NCBI RefSeq assembly: GCF_000021945.1
Contig: NC_011831.1
Span: forward strand, 840,001-904,000
Direction: 5' to 3'
DNA length: 64,000 bases
Origin: Chloroflexus aggregans DSM 9485
GTDB taxonomy: Bacteria > Chloroflexota > Chloroflexia > Chloroflexales > Chloroflexaceae
Position 1 is the first letter of the stretch. Each line of letters begins with the position of its first letter. Position numbers and translations under genes: made by a program. Positions 16,912 to 61,445 of this stretch are shown piece by piece. Below the pieces are notes generated by a model, which saw only the letters and a list, made by a program, of their open reading frames with translations, did not search any database and was not told the origin of the DNA.

Positions 16912-18037
16912 ATGATTGACTTTCCGATTACCGACCTGCTCGATGATGCCAGCTGCCTGCAGTGGCTCGAGCAGCACCTGCATCCCGACGGCGTCGTCTG
17001 TCCGCAGTGCGGGAGGGCGGATCGCCGCCTGTTTGTCCGCAATCAGGCCTTTCCCGGCTATCGCTGTCGCGCTTGTGCCACGTACTATACGATCCTCACC
17101 GGCACGGCGTTCGAGAAGACCCGGCAGCGGCCGGCGACCCTCGTCCTGCTGGTACGTGGCATTGCCACAGGCGAGTCGACCGCGCGCTTCTCCCGCGAAC
17201 TTGGGATCTCGCGCAAGCAATTGGATACGCTGCGCCTGCGTGTCCAAACCAACGTGGGGGAAACCGCACCCACCGACGTGATGGACGGGACCGAGTTTGA
17301 AGCGGATGAACTGTATCAGAATGCGGGGAAAAAAGGTACGCCGCAGCGCGATCCAGACGATCCGCCGCGCCGACGGGCGAACAAACGACCGGGTCGCGGC
17401 ACCGACGCCAATGATCGCCCGCCGATCGTGAGCATCATGTCCCGCACCACGAAGGAACATCGCTACTGGGTGGCCGAGACCACCACCAAAGACGAATTGC
17501 ACCCGTTGGTACGCGAGAACGTGCCCGCCGGGAGCACCGTCTGGTTCTCCACCGATGAACGCGCCAGTTATGCGGGCAGTCATCCGCAGCATGGCACGGT
17601 CTGCCACAGCCGGCATGCATGGGCGCGCGATGATGATGGTGACGGACGACGCGAAGTCCACTGCAATACATGTGAAGGCCGTGGCGCCGCACTCCGCACC
17701 TACCTCCGTCCGTTTCGTGGTACGCGAGAACGTGCCCGCCGGGAGCACCGTCTGGTTCTCCACCGATGAACGCGCCAGTTATGCGGGCATTCATCCGCAG
17801 CATGGCACGGTCTGCCACAGCCGGCATGCATGGGCGCGCGATGATGATGGTGACGGACGACGCGAAGTCCACTGCAATACATGTGAAGGCCGTGGCGCCG
17901 CACTCCGCACCTACCTCCGTCCGTTTCGTGGTGTCCATAAGCGCCATCTCTGGCACTCTGTGGCCACCTTCGAAGCCATGTCCAACGCCCGAACCATTAC
18001 CCCGACATTGATACACCGTATGTGTGTCGGCTACTAG
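16912..18037 (+). pseudogene. IS1595-family transposase, broken by 211-bp duplication
   Basis: The N-terminus carries a zinc ribbon (VVCPQCGRAD and YRCRACATYYTILTGTAFE), followed by the ISXO2-like catalytic core (DGTEFEADELYQNAGKKG, STDERASYAG). The family ending FRGVHKRHLWHSVATFEAM is present but lies after a second copy of 211 bases. Because 211 is not a multiple of three, the frame is lost at 17719. Removing one copy restores a normal transposase of about 305 residues ending at TAG 18035. The start ATG at 16912 lies about 20 bases inside the left inverted repeat. Confidence 0.85.
17508..17929 (+). repeat. 211-bp tandem duplication inside transposase
   Basis: Bases 17508-17718 are repeated immediately at 17719-17929 with a single visible difference (GGGCAGTC against GGGCATTC). 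The near identity implies a recent event. Confidence 0.93.
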
Positions 18038-54415: not shown

Positions 54416-54865
54416 ATGACTCAACCAACCGGCTTGCTCATCACCTTCCGCCCAGCCGATACGGACGGCGCCAACCCGGCGCTGGTCAACCGCGTCGCCC
54501 GCGAGGTCGTTAATAGCCTGCGTCAGCAACAACACACCATCGAACCAGCCTACACCACCTTGCGCAGCGGCGATGTCTACCGGTGGCTGGTCACGGCTGC
54601 TGATGCCGCCCAAACCCTGCTGCCATTGGTAACATTCTCGGCGGCGGTCGTGCAACTGCTTAACGAATTGAAAAAATTGACCGCCAAACCAGACAGCCCC
54701 AAGCCAACTGTCATCATCATCAACTACAACGCCGGCCAAACCGCCATCCCGGCTGATAGCGACGAGGCCTTGCTGACCCAACTGCTACGCGAACGCCTGC
54801 CAGAGCGGATTGATCCGGCCCAGACCAGCATCGAGGTGCAGATCGCCGCGCCGGACCCATGGTAA
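54416..54865 (+). CDS. EACC1-like small partner protein of the caspase-STAND receptor
   Basis: A 149-residue protein with AAAGGAG seven bases before its ATG. It begins with strands (GLLITFRPADTD), then a helix (ALVNRVAREVVNSLRQQQ). A hydrophobic helix (LLPLVTFSAAVVQLLNELKK) is followed by strands (PTVIIINYNAG) and a variable tail. This order resembles the effector-associated constant component (EACC1) proteins described next to peptidase/STAND conflict genes; the assignment is by pattern only. It precedes the 1831-residue caspase-STAND gene by 115 bases on the same strand and is probably its partner, perhaps coupling the effector to a membrane or trigger. Confidence 0.5.
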   Translation: MTQPTGLLITFRPADTDGANPALVNRVAREVVNSLRQQQHTIEPAYTTLRSGDVYRWLVTAADAAQTLLPLVTFSAAVVQLLNELKKLTAKPDSPKPTVIIINYNAGQTAIPADSDEALLTQLLRERLPERIDPAQTSIEVQIAAPDPW

Positions 54866-54901
54866 TCGGCGCAATGACTACCTATTCCATCATACCTTTG
54901 G

Positions 54902-54907
54902 TATAAT
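54902..54907 (+). promoter_or_regulatory. Candidate -10 element before caspase-STAND gene
   Basis: A perfect TATAAT sits 73 bases before the start codon, overlapping a small palindrome (ATACC-TTT-GGTAT) that could be an operator. No good -35 hexamer is present at 17 bases, so recognition may need an activator. Confidence 0.4.
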
Positions 54908-54980
54908 GTTCACCAAAGATTTCATTGCCAACCCGCCGCCACACAACTCGGCATAGGAGATTGTCGGGGGATCAACGTAT

Positions 54981-57900
54981 ATGTCTGCCGCCACTTCCCA
55001 CCGCCACGCCCTGATTGTCGGCGTTGACCACACCGCTGATCCGCACCTTGCCTCCTTGACCAGCGCCGAACGCGACGCGCGCGCATTGGCAGCGGCGCTA
55101 GAAGCGCCGGCCTGCGGCTTCACGGTGACGTTGCTGCTCGGCGCTGAAGCGACCGCTCACCGTATCCGGCGCGAGATTACTGCGCTACGCCAGCAAGCGA
55201 AACAACACCCTCTTGACATGATTGTCGCCTTCTGCGGCCATGGCGTACCGGTAGCGCTCGATGGCGGAGGGCATGAGACGTTTCTCGCCACCCACGATTT
55301 CATCACCGATGACGCAGCGTTAGATGCCACCGCCTTCCTCTCGCTGCGCTGGCTTTACCAGCAGGTCTATAAAGCCACTGAACCACGCAGCGCGGTACTC
55401 ATCCTCGATCACTGCTATGCCGGCAACATTCGAGACGCTGGCAACAATCGGTTGATAGTAGACCTGCGCGCAGCAATTGAACAGTATCGCGCCGAACAAC
55501 GACCTACCCCCGTGCCTCACGAATGGCTACGCGCGATCTTTCCCGCCACCCGTCCCGGCGAGCTGGCCGGCGAAACCGCCGCCGGCGGGTTGTTGACACA
55601 GGCCATCCTCACCGTATTGCGTGGCGAAACCCGGCTCGGTGATGGGCATATCACCATCGGCCAGCTTGACCACTATCTGAAACAGCAGTTTGCGGGGCAG
55701 AGCCAGCAACCATACACCCTGATCGAAGGCAACTATCCCTTGATACTAGCCGATTACCGCGAGCGCATTGCTGCGGAGCGGGCTGCCGCCGAACAACAAC
55801 ACCGCCGCGCTGAAGCGCAGGAAATGCTCAAACGCTGGCGCTCGCCTGATAGCCACGCCCGCGCTGCCGAACTACAGGCAAGCTTTGTCGGGCGGGAAAA
55901 GGAACTGGAGGAGATCCAGCGGCATATCGAGCAGCTCCGCCCTACCGGCGGCTACCTGCTCGTCACCGGGGTGGCCGGCCAAGGCAAGAGCAGCATCCTG
56001 GCGCGCTTGACCAGCACAACCGATCCCCCCCTCCCAGCCTACTTTATTCGCTTCATGCCCGGCCCCGACGAGCAAGCCGCCTTGCTCGGCCACCTGATTG
56101 CCGAACTGCTGACCCAGCACGGCCTGAGCGACGAGGCGTTGACCTATCTGGCCGATAATGCCAGCCCGATCACGCTGCGCAACAGCTTGATAGCGCTGCT
56201 CGACCGGGTGGCCCACAAGCACCCGCTGACCCTGATGATCGATGGCCTTGACCAAATCCCGGTTGATCGAAACCTCGGCCAGCGCGATCTCAGCTTTTTG
56301 CCTGAACAGTTGCCGAAAGGGGTGGTGTTCGTAATCGGCACCCGTCCGGATGATACGCTGGTGCCGCTCAAACTGCTCACCTCGTGCCGCGAATACCCCC
56401 TGCCGCCGCTCAGCCTCGCCGACTTCACCACCTTGCTTGACCGGCGTGGGGTCGCGTTGAGCGAGGCCGACCGCGCGGAGCTGTATACGGCGCTGCACGG
56501 CAATGCCTTCGACCTCGCCTTCTTGGCACAGGAATTGCAGCGCCAACCCAACATTGCCAATGCGCAGGCGCTGATCCGGCAGGTGATCGCCAACCCACGC
56601 AATATTTTCGTTCCGACCATTGAGCGATTGAAGCGCGAACTGCTCTGGGATAGGGCGATTAAACCGATCCTCGGTGTACTAACGGCGGCGCAGGAACCGC
56701 TCAGCTCGCCGGCCCTCACCGGCATTTTAGAACTGAATCACGACCTGGTGGAAGACGCGATAACGCTACTGCGCGGCCTACTCGGCGAACGTGACCGGGC
56801 GGGGCAAGCGCGCTATTTCTTGCTTCACCTGAAACTGCTCGACTATTTGCGCAGCAAATTGTTCCCCGATAACGAGCTAGCCACCTTCCACAACCGCTTA
56901 GCGCATTGGTGTGAACGCGATCTCGACCGTCTCTGGCAATCGGCCAACGACCAACCCGAAGCAGAGCGGCGCGCCTACGCCCAAACCCACCTCGTCGACC
57001 ACTTCGTCCACGCCAAAGCCTACGACCGGCTGTGGCAGTTGCTCGATGCCGATGAGTATGGCGCGGCCAAGCGGCAGGCCGACCCCAGCCTGCGCCGCTA
57101 TGCCCTTGACCTTGACCTCGCCCGGCGCGCGGTGGTCGCGGCTGCCGGCGACGATATTCCTGCGCTGGCGCGCAGTTTGCCGCGCCTCTGGCAATACAGC
57201 CTGCTCCGCTGCTCGCTCACCAGCCAAATCGACCGATGGCCGGTCGCACTGTTTACCGCGCTGGTGGCGCTCGGCCGCAGCGCCGAAGCCCGCGACCGGG
57301 CCGAACTGCTGAGCAATCCGAAACACCGCGCCAGCGTGTTGCTGGCGATTGGCCACGCGCTGCTCAATCGTGGCGAGCCGGAAGAGGCGTTGGCGGTGTG
57401 GCGAGGGGTGCGCAAGGCGGTTGATGCGATATCTGATGCTGAAGAGCGGTTCACACAGTTGCATGAGTTGGCCGTGGCCTTCACCCAGGCGGGATGTGCA
57501 GAAGAAGCGGATGCGGTCTTTGCACAAGCCCGCCACGCCGCCGACGCGATTGCAGACAACGATGACCGCACAAGGGCGCTGACCGCACTGGCCACCGCCC
57601 TCGCCCGCGCCGGGCAGTTCACCGCCGCCCGCCACGCCGCCGACGCGATTGCTGACAACGATGACCGCGCCAAGGCGCTGACCGAACTGGCCACCGCCCT
57701 CGCCCGCGCCGGGCAGTTCACCGCCGCCCGCCACGCCGCCGACGCGATTGATAGCGAATATCTCCGCGCAAGGGCGCTGACCGAACTTGCCACCGCCCTC
57801 GCCCACGCCGGGCAGTTCACCGCCGCCCGCCACGCCGCCGACGCGATTGATAGCGAATATCGCCGCGCCGAGGCGCTGACCGAACTGGCCACCGCCCTCG

Positions 57901-60476
57901 CCCGCGCCGGGCAGTTCACCGCCGCCCGCCACGCCGCCGACGCGATTGATAGCGAATATCTCCGCGCATGGGCGCTGACCGAACTGGCCACCGCCCTCGC
58001 CCGCGCCGGGCACGCACAGGCAGCCGAAGATACCTTTACCGCCGCCCGCCACGCCGCCGACGCGATTGCTGACAACGCTGCCCGCGCCGAGGCGCTGACC
58101 GCACTGGCCACCGCCCTCGCCCACGCCGGGCACGCACAGGCAGCCGAAGATACCTTTACCGCCGCCCGCCACGCCGCCGACGCGATTGATAGCGAATATC
58201 GCCGCGCCGAGGCGCTGACCGAACTGGCCACCGCCCTCGCCCACGCCGGGCACGCACAGGCAGCCGAAGATACCTTTACCGCCGCCCGCCACGCCGCCGA
58301 CGCGATTGCTGACAACCGTACCCGCGCATGGGCGCTGACCAATCTTGCCACCGCCCTCGCCCGCGCCGGGCAGTTCACCGCCGCCCGCCACGCCGCCGAC
58401 GCGATTGCTGACAACGCTGACCGCGCAAGGGCGCTGACCAAACTTGCCACCGCCCTCGCCCACGCCGGGCATGTCACCGCCGCCCGCCACGCCGCCGACG
58501 CGATTGCTGACAACGATGACCGCGCCGAGGCGCTGACCAAACTTGCCACCGCCCTCGCCCACGCCGGGCATGTCACCGCCGCCCGCCACGCCGCCGACGC
58601 GATTGATAGCGAATATCACCGCGCCAGGGCGCTGACCGAACTGGCCACCGCCCTCGCCCGCGCCGGGCATGTCACCGCCGCCCGCCACGCCGCCGACGCG
58701 ATTGCTGACAACGATGACCGCGCCAAGGCGCTGACCGCCCTTGCCACCGCCCTCGCCCGCGCCGGGCAGTTCACCGCCGCCCGCCACGCCGCCGACGCGA
58801 TTGCTGACAACGATGACCGCGCCGAGGCGCTGACCAAACTTGCCACCGCCCTCGCCCACGCCGGGCATGTCACCGCCGCCCGCCACGCCGCCGACGCGAT
58901 TGCTGACAACGATGACCGCGCCGAGGCGCTGACCAAACTTGCCACCGCCCTCGCCCACGCCGGGCAGTTCACCGCCGCCCGCCACGCCGCCGACGCGATT
59001 GATAGCGAATATCACCGCGCCAGGGCGCTGACCGCCCTTGCCACCGCCCTCGCCCACGCCGGGCAGTTCACCGCCGCCCGCCACGCCGCCGACGCGATTG
59101 ATAGCGAATATCACCGCGCCAGGGCGCTGACCGCCCTTGCCACCGCCCTCGCCCACGCCGGGCACGCACAGGCAGCCGAAGATACCTTTACCGCCGCCCG
59201 CCACGCCGCCGACGCGATTGCTGACAACGCTGACCGCGCAAGGGCGCTGACCAATCTTGCCACCGCCCTCGCCCGCGCCGGGCACGCACAGGCAGCCGAA
59301 GATACCTTTACCGCCGCCCGCCACGCCGCCGACGCGATTGCTGACAACGCTGACCGCGCCGAGGCGCTGACCGCCCTTGCCACCGCCCTCGCCCACGCCG
59401 GGCATGTCACCGCCGCCCGCCACGCCGCCGACGCGATTGCTGACAACCGTACCCGCGCATGGGCGCTGACCAATCTTGCCACCGCCCTCGCCCGCGCCGG
59501 GCAGTTCACCGCCGCCCGCCACGCCGCCGACGCGATTGCTGACAACGCTGACCGCGCAAGGGCGCTGACCAAACTTGCCACCGCCCTCGCCCACGCCGGG
59601 CACGCACAGGCAGCCGAAGATACCTTTACCGCCGCCCGCCACGCCGCCGACGCGATTGCTGACAACGCTGACCGCGCCGAGGCGCTGACCGAACTGGCCA
59701 CCGCCCTCGCCCACGCCGGGCAGTTCACCGCCGCCCGCCACGCCGCCGACGCGATTGCTGACAACCGTGCCCGCGCATGGGCGCTGACCAATCTTGCCAC
59801 CGCCCTCGCCCGCGCCGGGCACGCACAGGCAGCCGAAGATACCTTTACCGCCGCCCGCCACGCCGCCGACGCGATTGCTGACAACCGTGCCCGCGCAAGG
59901 GCGCTGACCAATCTTGCCACCGCCCTCGCCCACGCCGGGCACGCACAGGCAGCCGAAGATACCTTTACCGCCGCCCGCCACGCCGCCGACGCGATTGCTG
60001 ACAACGCTGCCCGCGCCGAGGCGCTGACCAATCTTGCCACCGCCCTCGCCCACGCCGGGCACGCACAGGCAGCCGAAGATACCTTTACCGCCGCCCGCCA
60101 CGCCGCCGACGCGATTGCTGACAACGCTGACCGCGCAAGGGCGCTGACCAATCTTGCCACCGCCCTCGCCCACGCCGGGAACGCACAGGCAGCCGAAGAT
60201 ACCTTTACCGCCGCCCGCCACGCCGCCGACGCGATTGCTGACAACGATGACCGCGCCAGGGCGCTGACCAATCTTGCCACCGCCCTCGCCAACACTGACC
60301 GCATCGCCGAGGTCGTGTTACTCGTTGCCGAGGTATGGCAAAATGCGCAGACCCGCGCTGAATTGCTACTCTTGTTTGCAATGGCGACAATGTTGCTCCG
60401 GGCGTACCCGGAGATCGGGGCCGGTTTTGTGCAGGCGTTTGCGTGGGTCGAAGAAGCGATGCGGCGGGGTATGTAG
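54981..60476 (+). CDS. Caspase-like / STAND ATPase / 26-repeat helical sensor protein
   Basis: An 1831-residue protein with GGGGGA ahead of its ATG. Residues about 8-245 are a caspase-like (C14) domain with His in IVAFCGHGVPV (near 88) and Cys in LILDHCYAGNI (near 145). About 300-640 is a STAND/NACHT ATPase with Walker A TGVAGQGKSS (near 336) and Walker B LTLMIDGLDQ (near 420). After a helical connector, residues about 850-1770 are 26 copies of a 33- or 40-residue TPR-like repeat (ALTELATALARAG plus ARHAADAI). By analogy with NLR-type receptors, binding to the repeats would drive ATP-dependent oligomerisation and protease activation, killing or arresting the cell. Partner gene upstream; all catalytic residues intact. 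Confidence 0.88.
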   Translation: MSAATSHRHALIVGVDHTADPHLASLTSAERDARALAAALEAPACGFTVTLLLGAEATAHRIRREITALRQQAKQHPLDMIVAFCGHGVPVALDGGGHETFLATHDFITDDAALDATAFLSLRWLYQQVYKATEPRSAVLILDHCYAGNIRDAGNNRLIVDLRAAIEQYRAEQRPTPVPHEWLRAIFPATRPGELAGETAAGGLLTQAILTVLRGETRLGDGHITIGQLDHYLKQQFAGQSQQPYTLIEGNYPLILADYRERIAAERAAAEQQHRRAEAQEMLKRWRSPDSHARAAELQASFVGREKELEEIQRHIEQLRPTGGYLLVTGVAGQGKSSILARLTSTTDPPLPAYFIRFMPGPDEQAALLGHLIAELLTQHGLSDEALTYLADNASPITLRNSLIALLDRVAHKHPLTLMIDGLDQIPVDRNLGQRDLSFLPEQLPKGVVFVIGTRPDDTLVPLKLLTSCREYPLPPLSLADFTTLLDRRGVALSEADRAELYTALHGNAFDLAFLAQELQRQPNIANAQALIRQVIANPRNIFVPTIERLKRELLWDRAIKPILGVLTAAQEPLSSPALTGILELNHDLVEDAITLLRGLLGERDRAGQARYFLLHLKLLDYLRSKLFPDNELATFHNRLAHWCERDLDRLWQSANDQPEAERRAYAQTHLVDHFVHAKAYDRLWQLLDADEYGAAKRQADPSLRRYALDLDLARRAVVAAAGDDIPALARSLPRLWQYSLLRCSLTSQIDRWPVALFTALVALGRSAEARDRAELLSNPKHRASVLLAIGHALLNRGEPEEALAVWRGVRKAVDAISDAEERFTQLHELAVAFTQAGCAEEADAVFAQARHAADAIADNDDRTRALTALATALARAGQFTAARHAADAIADNDDRAKALTELATALARAGQFTAARHAADAIDSEYLRARALTELATALAHAGQFTAARHAADAIDSEYRRAEALTELATALARAGQFTAARHAADAIDSEYLRAWALTELATALARAGHAQAAEDTFTAARHAADAIADNAARAEALTALATALAHAGHAQAAEDTFTAARHAADAIDSEYRRAEALTELATALAHAGHAQAAEDTFTAARHAADAIADNRTRAWALTNLATALARAGQFTAARHAADAIADNADRARALTKLATALAHAGHVTAARHAADAIADNDDRAEALTKLATALAHAGHVTAARHAADAIDSEYHRARALTELATALARAGHVTAARHAADAIADNDDRAKALTALATALARAGQFTAARHAADAIADNDDRAEALTKLATALAHAGHVTAARHAADAIADNDDRAEALTKLATALAHAGQFTAARHAADAIDSEYHRARALTALATALAHAGQFTAARHAADAIDSEYHRARALTALATALAHAGHAQAAEDTFTAARHAADAIADNADRARALTNLATALARAGHAQAAEDTFTAARHAADAIADNADRAEALTALATALAHAGHVTAARHAADAIADNRTRAWALTNLATALARAGQFTAARHAADAIADNADRARALTKLATALAHAGHAQAAEDTFTAARHAADAIADNADRAEALTELATALAHAGQFTAARHAADAIADNRARAWALTNLATALARAGHAQAAEDTFTAARHAADAIADNRARARALTNLATALAHAGHAQAAEDTFTAARHAADAIADNAARAEALTNLATALAHAGHAQAAEDTFTAARHAADAIADNADRARALTNLATALAHAGNAQAAEDTFTAARHAADAIADNDDRARALTNLATALANTDRIAEVVLLVAEVWQNAQTRAELLLLFAMATMLLRAYPEIGAGFVQAFAWVEEAMRRGM
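57528..60290 (+). repeat. 26 tandem coding repeats of 99 or 120 bp
   Basis: The unit begins GCCCGCCACGCCGCCGACGC and is 99 bp, or 120 bp when it carries an extra CACGCACAGGCAGCCGAAGA insert (residues HAQAAED). Copies differ almost only in a short variable cassette after ADAI (ADNDD, ADNAD, ADNRT, DSEYL, DSEYR, DSEYH and others) and at one linker. The same variants recur in scattered positions. All lengths are multiples of three, so gain or loss of units keeps the frame. Confidence 0.93.
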
Positions 60477-61320: not shown

Positions 61321-61360
61321 ACGCAAAGACGCAAAGACGCAAAGACGCAAAGACGCAAAG
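61321..61360. repeat. Octamer tandem repeat ACGCAAAG x5
   Basis: Five perfect copies of ACGCAAAG followed by the variant GACGCAGAGG, in the 185-base gap between surE and the VWA gene. A slippage-prone microsatellite upstream of surE. Confidence 0.9.
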
Positions 61361-61445
61361 GACGCAGAGGGTTGTGGGATAATTCGCAGAACCACACGGT
61401 CGTGCGGCTCCACCCCCCAGCGGGGGGCTAGGAGGAGCATTCTGA

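Follow-up and report, generated by a model that had tools for sequence, protein, structure and literature searches.

A Caspase-STAND Receptor Gene of Chloroflexus aggregans with a Homogenized Array of TPR-Like Repeats: a Candidate NLR-Like Death Receptor

Introduction

Why would a bacterial caspase receptor end in a long run of near-identical repeats? The question is raised by a gene of Chloroflexus aggregans DSM 9485 that lies within bases 840001 to 904000 of a genome assembled as a single contig of 4,684,931 bases; this stretch of 64,000 nucleotides (nt) is called the window below, and positions are counted within it. The gene encodes a putative receptor in which a caspase domain is followed by a STAND-type P-loop ATPase and by 26 TPR-like units (Table 1). 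An initial annotation, made from the letters of the sequence, had proposed that this array can grow, shrink and be shuffled by recombination without losing frame, yielding a self-diversifying immune receptor. Here we ask what the array itself, its relatives in other genomes and structure prediction say about that proposal.

Results

The receptor and its motifs

An N-terminal effector, a central P-loop NTPase and C-terminal repeats make up an NLR-like STAND layout, and Pfam gives Peptidase_C14, AAA_16 and, in the repeats, TPR_17 above their cut-offs, in line with the architecture first annotated. The STAND clade is less sharply placed, both nSTAND1 (24.8 bits) and NACHT (21.1 bits) scoring below their Pfam cut-offs. 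The caspase and ATPase motifs had been described as intact, and they are: Walker A reads GVAGQGKSS and Walker B MIDGLD, none of the nine aligned rows has lost the His/Cys dyad or the Walker A lysine, and DGLD is present throughout the seven rows of the receptor family. In NCBIfam the sole caspase match is to caspase_w_EACC1 (NF047832), at 57.9 bits (E value of 9.3e-16) against a curated cut-off of 140. Searches for solved structures related in sequence to the caspase-ATPase half gave none at an E value of 0.01, and searches for phage homologs of the array gave no match at 1e-10. An antisense open reading frame (ORF) of 1,107 amino acids (aa) overlies the array (56898 to 60221, minus strand); the frame stays open since the repeat lacks a stop codon in it, and the ORF is probably not a gene.

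Array units and variable modules

Splitting the translation at ARHAADAI delimits the 26 units, 16 of 99 bp (33 aa) and 10 of 120 bp (40 aa), with the degenerate last unit counted as 99 bp; the 40-aa units are 33-aa units with a 7-aa insertion. Tandem Repeats Finder, run independently, returned periods of 99 and 120 with scores of up to 1361 and 1030, in agreement with the unit lengths given at the outset. Both lengths are multiples of 3, and therefore gain, loss or exchange of a unit keeps the frame, as had been supposed. The description of the units as nearly identical in DNA needs dividing: it holds outside the variable modules and overstates the likeness inside them. Over the 87-nt core, units share on average 0.897 of their bases (range, 0.782 to 1.000) and 0.829 of their amino acids (range, 0.655 to 1.000). 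Nineteen of the 29 core codons are invariant in DNA among the 25 full units (17 of 29 among all 26), and variation is confined to codons 9 to 13, 15 and 16, 20 and 21, and 27, plus the unit tail, which reads QF, HV or (H/N)AQAAEDTF. Most core differences change the amino acid; synonymous ones occur at codons 9, 15, 20 and 21 only.

For fungal NLRs, high internal conservation (HIC) is defined, in the part of PMC4986451 available to us, by repeats that are more than 85% identical across a stretch of 100 aa or longer. In our pairwise comparison of the 29-aa cores, which is not the tool of that study, mean identity reaches 0.85 or more in 8 of the 23 contiguous runs of four units, the highest being 0.914, and the mean over all 26 units, 0.829, falls below that value.

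Recombination inside the array

The degenerate unit 26 was excluded from the haplotype, four-gamete and substitution counts, which use the other 25. When six modules are taken as loci, these units carry 23 distinct combinations, and the ADN and DSEY cassettes can be seen in the unit listing to recur out of order, as reported initially. A four-gamete test on 11 two-state sites (rarer state present at least twice) found all four combinations in 37 of 55 pairs, and the Hudson-Kaplan minimum is 4 recombination intervals within 87 bp. Recurrent mutation is an unlikely source of this pattern, because modules such as GCTGACAAC and GATAGCGAA differ at several bases together; the earlier suggestion that cassettes are shuffled by recombination is thus borne out by the haplotype and interval counts.

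Only five of 15 module pairs were associated at P<0.05: codons 9 to 11 with 12 and 13 and codons 12 and 13 with 15 and 16 (P 0.0005 each), and also 9 to 11 with 15 and 16, 9 to 11 with 20 and 21, and 15 and 16 with 27. No significant association was found for the other three neighboring pairs or for any pair involving the tail, and none of nine tests across unit junctions was significant. Exact duplication of long blocks is represented within the array by only one case of at least 150 bp, a 194-bp segment at 58278 and 59409, and recombination by block duplication only was rejected on that ground. When a composite unit was used to search the entire genome, all 26 matches lay inside the array, with no copies outside it, and no RVT_1 reverse transcriptase was found in the genome (3 of 14 control genomes gave matches); the units are therefore most likely their own donors. 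The simplest reading of these patterns is short-tract exchange between units, by gene conversion or by repeated multi-point crossing-over, together with homogenization.

Differences between units lean toward replacement. Over all unit pairs and 29 codons, the ratio of nonsynonymous to synonymous differences per site (pN/pS) is 2.29, and within the variable codons it is 1.66; pN and pS are both zero in the 19 remaining core codons. Positive selection is suggested by the ratio of 2.29 and not proven.

Predicted fold of the array

The structure prediction proposed for the repeats was run with AlphaFold2 on units 1 to 10, using five alignment rows from the C. aggregans and Chloroflexus islandicus arrays, and gave a confident alpha-solenoid (predicted local distance difference test score [pLDDT], 91.9; predicted template modeling score, 0.82). 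In this model helix A covers unit positions 11 to 27, and helix B, 9 residues long in the 33-aa units, is extended to 16 by the insertion of the 40-aa units. Foldseek and VIA-align matched the model to TPR proteins (LGN and O-GlcNAc transferase), designed PPR proteins and VPS35, with the middling scores usual for repeat proteins.

On a helical wheel, variable positions 12, 13, 16, 20 and 27 fall within an arc of 100 degrees, a clustering reached by about 1% of random five-position sets, or by 2% with Leu18, Leu21 and Leu25 excluded, for positions that were chosen after the data had been seen. The three leucines lie at 180 to 240 degrees (Leu18 and Leu25 placed manually), and the variable stripe would therefore point away from them. 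Variable positions 9 to 11 are placed in the turn that leads into helix A. In TPR proteins generally, the concave groove is formed by the exposed side of helix A. The five variable helix-A positions share one face in the model, in support of the initial proposal.

The ortholog and other related arrays

Genome collections were compared with one genome per species, and the nearest named relative found was C. islandicus. Its ortholog is 82% identical over the first 770 aa, with a synonymous divergence (dS) of about 0.27 over the aligned half, and it is syntenic, adjoining the same isoleucyl-tRNA synthetase (IleRS) gene, which we named from its sequence without a family search, and the same small partner gene. 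Its array has 20 units built from modules other than those in the window. Unit order did not match significantly between the two arrays (P 0.074 at variable positions and 0.194 at all positions; self-control, P 0.002), which fits the proposal that the array can change in number and order. All 26 units of the window had their closest match within their own array, as did 20 of 20, 24 of 25, 24 of 26 and 11 of 11 units in four related arrays (omitting a single unit ahead of the array in L009 and the first two units in L022; G, C and L numbers are our labels for genomes, contigs and loci). These comparisons indicate that the arrays evolve in concert within species. The initial annotation mentioned neither this concerted evolution nor the partner gene nor the fungal precedents discussed below. 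The pattern-based unit finder missed degenerate units in some arrays, recognizable by irregular spacings (L023, L024, L028 and L032).

Across the class, 22 of 158 genomes match some part of the query at an E value of at most 1e-20. We scored 39 ORFs at their matched reading frames, 17 with a caspase (match starting at query residue 10 or before) and 22 without (starting at residue 241 or later), so that "without caspase" means no match to the caspase part of the query; the loci were chosen by hand and are not independent by descent. ORFs cut at the 3′ end (three with and two without a caspase) were not counted, and L083 is cut at its 5′ end. With a near-identical array defined by a best-lag DNA identity of at least 0.8 over 198 bases, 12 of the 14 3′-complete proteins that match the caspase part have one, the window's included. 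Near-identical arrays of 99 or 120 bases (0.80 to 0.97) were also seen in the caspase-less STAND homologs L032, L078, L028, L027, L083 and L079.

A second family joins a caspase to another type of P-loop ATPase and to near-identical 42-aa TPR-like units, and has a homolog of the partner gene on its 3′ side; it was noted at L034 (G003:C1:4572000-4585000) and L036 (G007:C84). Among the 19 units of the L034 array, 9 sequences are distinct and 8 neighboring pairs are identical, runs that have the look of fresh expansion; the ten units of the G007 array are all different. WD40 was considered for these 126-bp arrays and rejected: no WD units were found, and by eye they read as 42-aa TPR-like units.

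The partner gene and the intergenic element

The alpha/beta layout of the partner protein is our reading of its sequence. Its Kyte-Doolittle maximum is 1.62, against 1.49 to 2.29 in nine homologs, with one hydrophobic stretch. The gene is present in 10 of 41 genomes with 13 matches, nine of them directly adjoining a caspase gene, six on the 5′ side in the receptor's family and three on the 3′ side in the second family. The copy in G018 lies about 2 kb downstream of a caspase gene, and three have no caspase gene seen alongside: one in G036 (at a contig end) and two in G004, on C5 and on C20, where the copy (L091) remains at the IleRS site with no adjoining receptor. In G004, the contig that carries the receptor gene (L026, G004:C25) ends at the first array-like unit.

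In two-gene caspase systems, EACC1 has a hydrophobic helix between alpha/beta parts, as described in the portion of Kaur et al. 2020 (PMC7159879) open to us. The window's partner protein gave no Pfam match at E values up to 10, and the EACC1 model (PF19953) matched neither the partner nor, over its cut-off, anything in the 41 genomes, whose controls also gave none, leaving the sensitivity of that search unproven. The same model gave no match at 1e-5 in 400 genomes of the phylum, and plasmid records searched for true EACC1 neighbors gave none. Because no EACC1 search was positive, the likeness is one of layout only, and we would say that the partner may work like EACC1, not that it is EACC1. 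An assignment to RlmC (NCBIfam, 20 bits against a cut-off of 558) was judged meaningless.

The inverted repeat between the two genes is near-identical in C. islandicus, with one arm mismatch, and is not kept in G002. A consensus promoter scanner did not list it as a plus-strand promoter. It is possibly the operator of a self-regulated promoter.

TABLE 1 Features of the receptor locus (positions within the window)
Feature	Position	Strand	Remarks
Partner protein gene	54416-54865	+	149 aa; alpha/beta flanks around one hydrophobic helix (EACC1-like in layout only)
Inverted repeat CTTTGGT-N9-ACCAAAG enclosing TATAAT	54896-54918	.	Candidate promoter/operator of receptor gene; between partner and receptor genes
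Caspase-STAND-TPR receptor gene	54981-60476	+	ATG start; 1831 aa
Caspase (Peptidase_C14) domain	55002-55634	+	Pfam PF00656, 48.5 bits vs cut-off of 21.4
Caspase dyad codons, His87 and Cys145	55239-55241 and 55413-55415	+
STAND-type P-loop ATPase	55875-56420	+	AAA_16, 50.9 bits vs cut-off of 32.6
Walker A; Walker B Asp421 codon	55968-55991; 56241-56243	+
Helical linker and degenerate TPR-like units before array	56421-57527	+	Sequence reading; secondary structure from low-confidence model only
Array of 26 TPR-like units (99 or 120 bp)	57528-60311	+	Self-homogenized, with variable modules
Non-repeated C-terminal cap	60312-60476	+	Conserved in C. islandicus (..RAYPEIGAGFVQAFAWVEEAMRRGM)

Other repeats in the window

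Three further repeats were noted. At the window start, positions 33 to 768 hold a tandem array with a 107-base period and 19-base sub-repeats (TGCGAGCGCAGCCTGTCCT). Positions 17507 to 17932 consist of two tandem 211-base copies with 99% matches; 211 is not a multiple of 3, and therefore a change in copy number inside a gene would shift the frame. At 61321 to 61366 an octamer (ACGCAAAG) is repeated 5.6 times a short way upstream of where a minus-strand gene probably starts, a gene that we take to be surE-like from its MYILVTNDDGY start.

Discussion

We read the protein as a bacterial NLR-like death receptor with a recombination-diversified TPR sensor, and put the probability of this reading at roughly 60%. 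It builds on the architecture and its intact motifs, the predicted array fold, homogenization with recombination inside units, turnover of the array between species and the recurrent partner gene. From these we infer a course of ligand binding, oligomerization, caspase activity and cell death, in an immune or kin-recognition role, with shuffling still proceeding at some rate. The end served may be phage defense, stress-induced programmed death or kin recognition. In the resting state, array and ATPase core would keep each other closed. A ligand binding the alpha-solenoid face formed by helix A would let the ATPase open and oligomerize, and the N-terminal caspases, brought together, would become active, with cell suicide or the release of an effector as the outcome; that a ligand-released ATPase clusters the caspases is suggested by analogy with TPR-autoinhibited STANDs and effector-gathering NLRs. 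The small partner protein probably takes part, perhaps at the membrane. Inter-unit recombination inside the array, for its part, would keep the scaffold DNA identical and re-assort the short modules encoding positions 12, 13, 16, 20 and 27 and the length of helix B, and new sensor surfaces would arise without frame loss.

Several findings weigh against this reading. Peptidase_C14 has a single match in the C. aggregans genome, the receptor itself, and hence there is no expanded repertoire of caspase receptors; nor was a second copy of the caspase-ATPase half found there. PADLOC returned STAND_TPR and TPR only, via the repeats, and AlphaFold2 modeled the caspase-ATPase half poorly from a two-row alignment (pLDDT, 40), a model used for rough secondary structure only. 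A codon bootstrap of the pN/pS of 2.29 has a 95% range of 0.78 to 35.9, with 6.4% below 1, and because this range includes 1 we make no firm claim of positive selection. The same ratio is 0.47 to 0.91 over 29 codons in six other arrays, among which only that of G030 tops 1 at the variable codons (1.27). Per-position variability in four of the six correlates with that in the window at P<0.05 (rho, 0.23 to 0.57; uncorrected for multiple tests). Two complete caspase-bearing relatives, L035 (0.545) and L077 (0.46), lack a near-identical array, and 6 of 20 complete homologs with no caspase match have one, so that homogenization of repeats is not limited to caspase receptors. A near-identical array is commoner with a caspase and is not tied to it.

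Some of these points belong equally to an explanation by recent expansion only, which we consider unlikely if well worth weighing: slippage or unequal crossing-over would have produced the array recently, its variable residues would be tolerant exposed positions, and the protein would be a commonplace STAND, scaffold or regulator, in which diversification plays no part. Such an origin would suit the identical-unit runs of the second family and the arrays of caspase-less homologs, and exposed positions do tolerate change, a point with which the bootstrap range agrees; it sits poorly with re-assortment inside 87 bp and with the single long exact duplicate. The synonymous differences, too, lie in or next to replacement codons, a contrast that comes partly from the sorting of codons. 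Furthermore, near-identity recurs in the ortholog, at a dS of 0.27 in the receptor half, which argues against a merely young array.

A different possibility keeps the mechanism and changes the ligand. The receptor might serve kin or self recognition instead of phage defense, sensing a polymorphic protein of neighboring filaments, as in fungal heterokaryon incompatibility; we regard this as quite improbable. Chloroflexus is filamentous and forms mats, a habit that would suit such a role, and we know of no cytoplasmic fusion in these bacteria, which counts against it. No polymorphic partner turned up, and none was sought. There is a fungal precedent: HET-D and HET-E recognize HET-C variants by means of near-identical repeats that are under diversifying selection, as far as the accessible text of PMC12222747 goes.

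That the unit number or order is an assembly artifact is very improbable. Long near-identical arrays are hard to assemble, and the G004 contig that breaks off at the first array-like unit is a case in point; the C. aggregans genome, by contrast, is a single contig, the independently assembled ortholog spans a similar array, and mis-ordering is limited because 23 of the 25 units can be told apart. A diversity-generating retroelement (DGR) that mutates the repeats by reverse transcription from a template is close to refuted, neither an RVT_1 reverse transcriptase nor a template copy outside the array having been found in the genome, even though variable codons 12, 13, 16 and 27 differ in their first two bases only and some multicellular bacteria do have STAND receptors diversified by DGRs (PMC10907252).

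How, then, does the proposed death receptor with a recombination-diversified TPR sensor compare with known systems? MalT and PH0952, to our knowledge, have neither a caspase nor homogenized repeats. The published accounts cited here are taken from the available part of each paper. The closest pattern is that of fungal NLRs, which combine near-identical WD40, ANK or TPR repeats with concerted evolution, polymorphism in repeat number and hypervariable positions at the surface (PMC4986451, PMC12222747); in a Podospora TPR NLR, selected or hypervariable sites map to the concave side (PMC4986451). Like the fungal HIC NLRs (HET-D and HET-E with WD40, Podospora proteins with ANK or TPR), the C. aggregans receptor has an N-terminal effector, a central NTPase and near-identical C-terminal repeats, and its repeats likewise seem to evolve in concert, with few variable positions on a candidate interaction surface. 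It differs from them in its bacterial host, its caspase effector, its mixed 33- and 40-aa TPR-like units and the shuffling below the unit, and, unlike the fungal gene families, it is the one caspase-receptor gene of its genome.

Bacterial precedents share parts of the design. Highly repetitive prokaryotic WD40 proteins also have high internal repeat identity; they differ in being beta-propellers, attributed mostly to recent duplication, and the part of PMC5587647 at hand does not describe module shuffling within units. EACC1-caspase System 4 (PMC7159879) similarly has a small 5′ gene followed by a gene with an N-terminal caspase and a STAND/repeat C terminus, whereas our caspase is far below the curated cut-off and no Pfam EACC1 match was found at the locus. 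The DGR-diversified STAND/CLec sensors of multicellular bacteria resemble the receptor in joining a STAND protein to a diversified sensor; their variable part is a C-type lectin domain, mutated by a reverse transcriptase, whereas C. aggregans has no RVT_1 and the repeats themselves are likely donors (PMC10907252). Prokaryotic metacaspases that carry NACHT or NB-ARC together with repeats, two of the NB-ARC ones from the genus Chloroflexus, belong to the same architecture class, and repeat identity and array evolution are not treated in the accessible part of PMC3501461. Finally, MalT and PH0952 also follow a STAND core with a TPR-type sensor, which autoinhibits them (PMC6468293). In the open literature, subscription papers being mostly outside our coverage, we found no bacterial caspase receptor described with a near-identical TPR array that is shuffled below the level of the unit. 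Taken from sequence, then, the receptor appears to match the fungal HIC-NLR pattern, and its bacterial host, caspase effector and conserved small partner gene would be what is new.

One can envision going further, to an idea that we hold only tentatively and think doubtful: that the array is a somatic-type diversifier. Its units would be both donors and acceptors in short-tract recombination, and cells of one population, perhaps of one mat, would carry differing sensor surfaces on a suicide protease. Diversification would then need neither reverse transcriptase nor silent cassettes, and it would be used by two separate caspase-receptor families of filamentous Chloroflexales.

If the array works as its anatomy suggests, bacteria would share a route of diversification with fungi, with a caspase as the effector, and diversification would reach below the single repeat. 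The locus offers a concrete, sequenced case for asking how death receptors vary within populations, which positions set their specificity and which ligands they may recognize.

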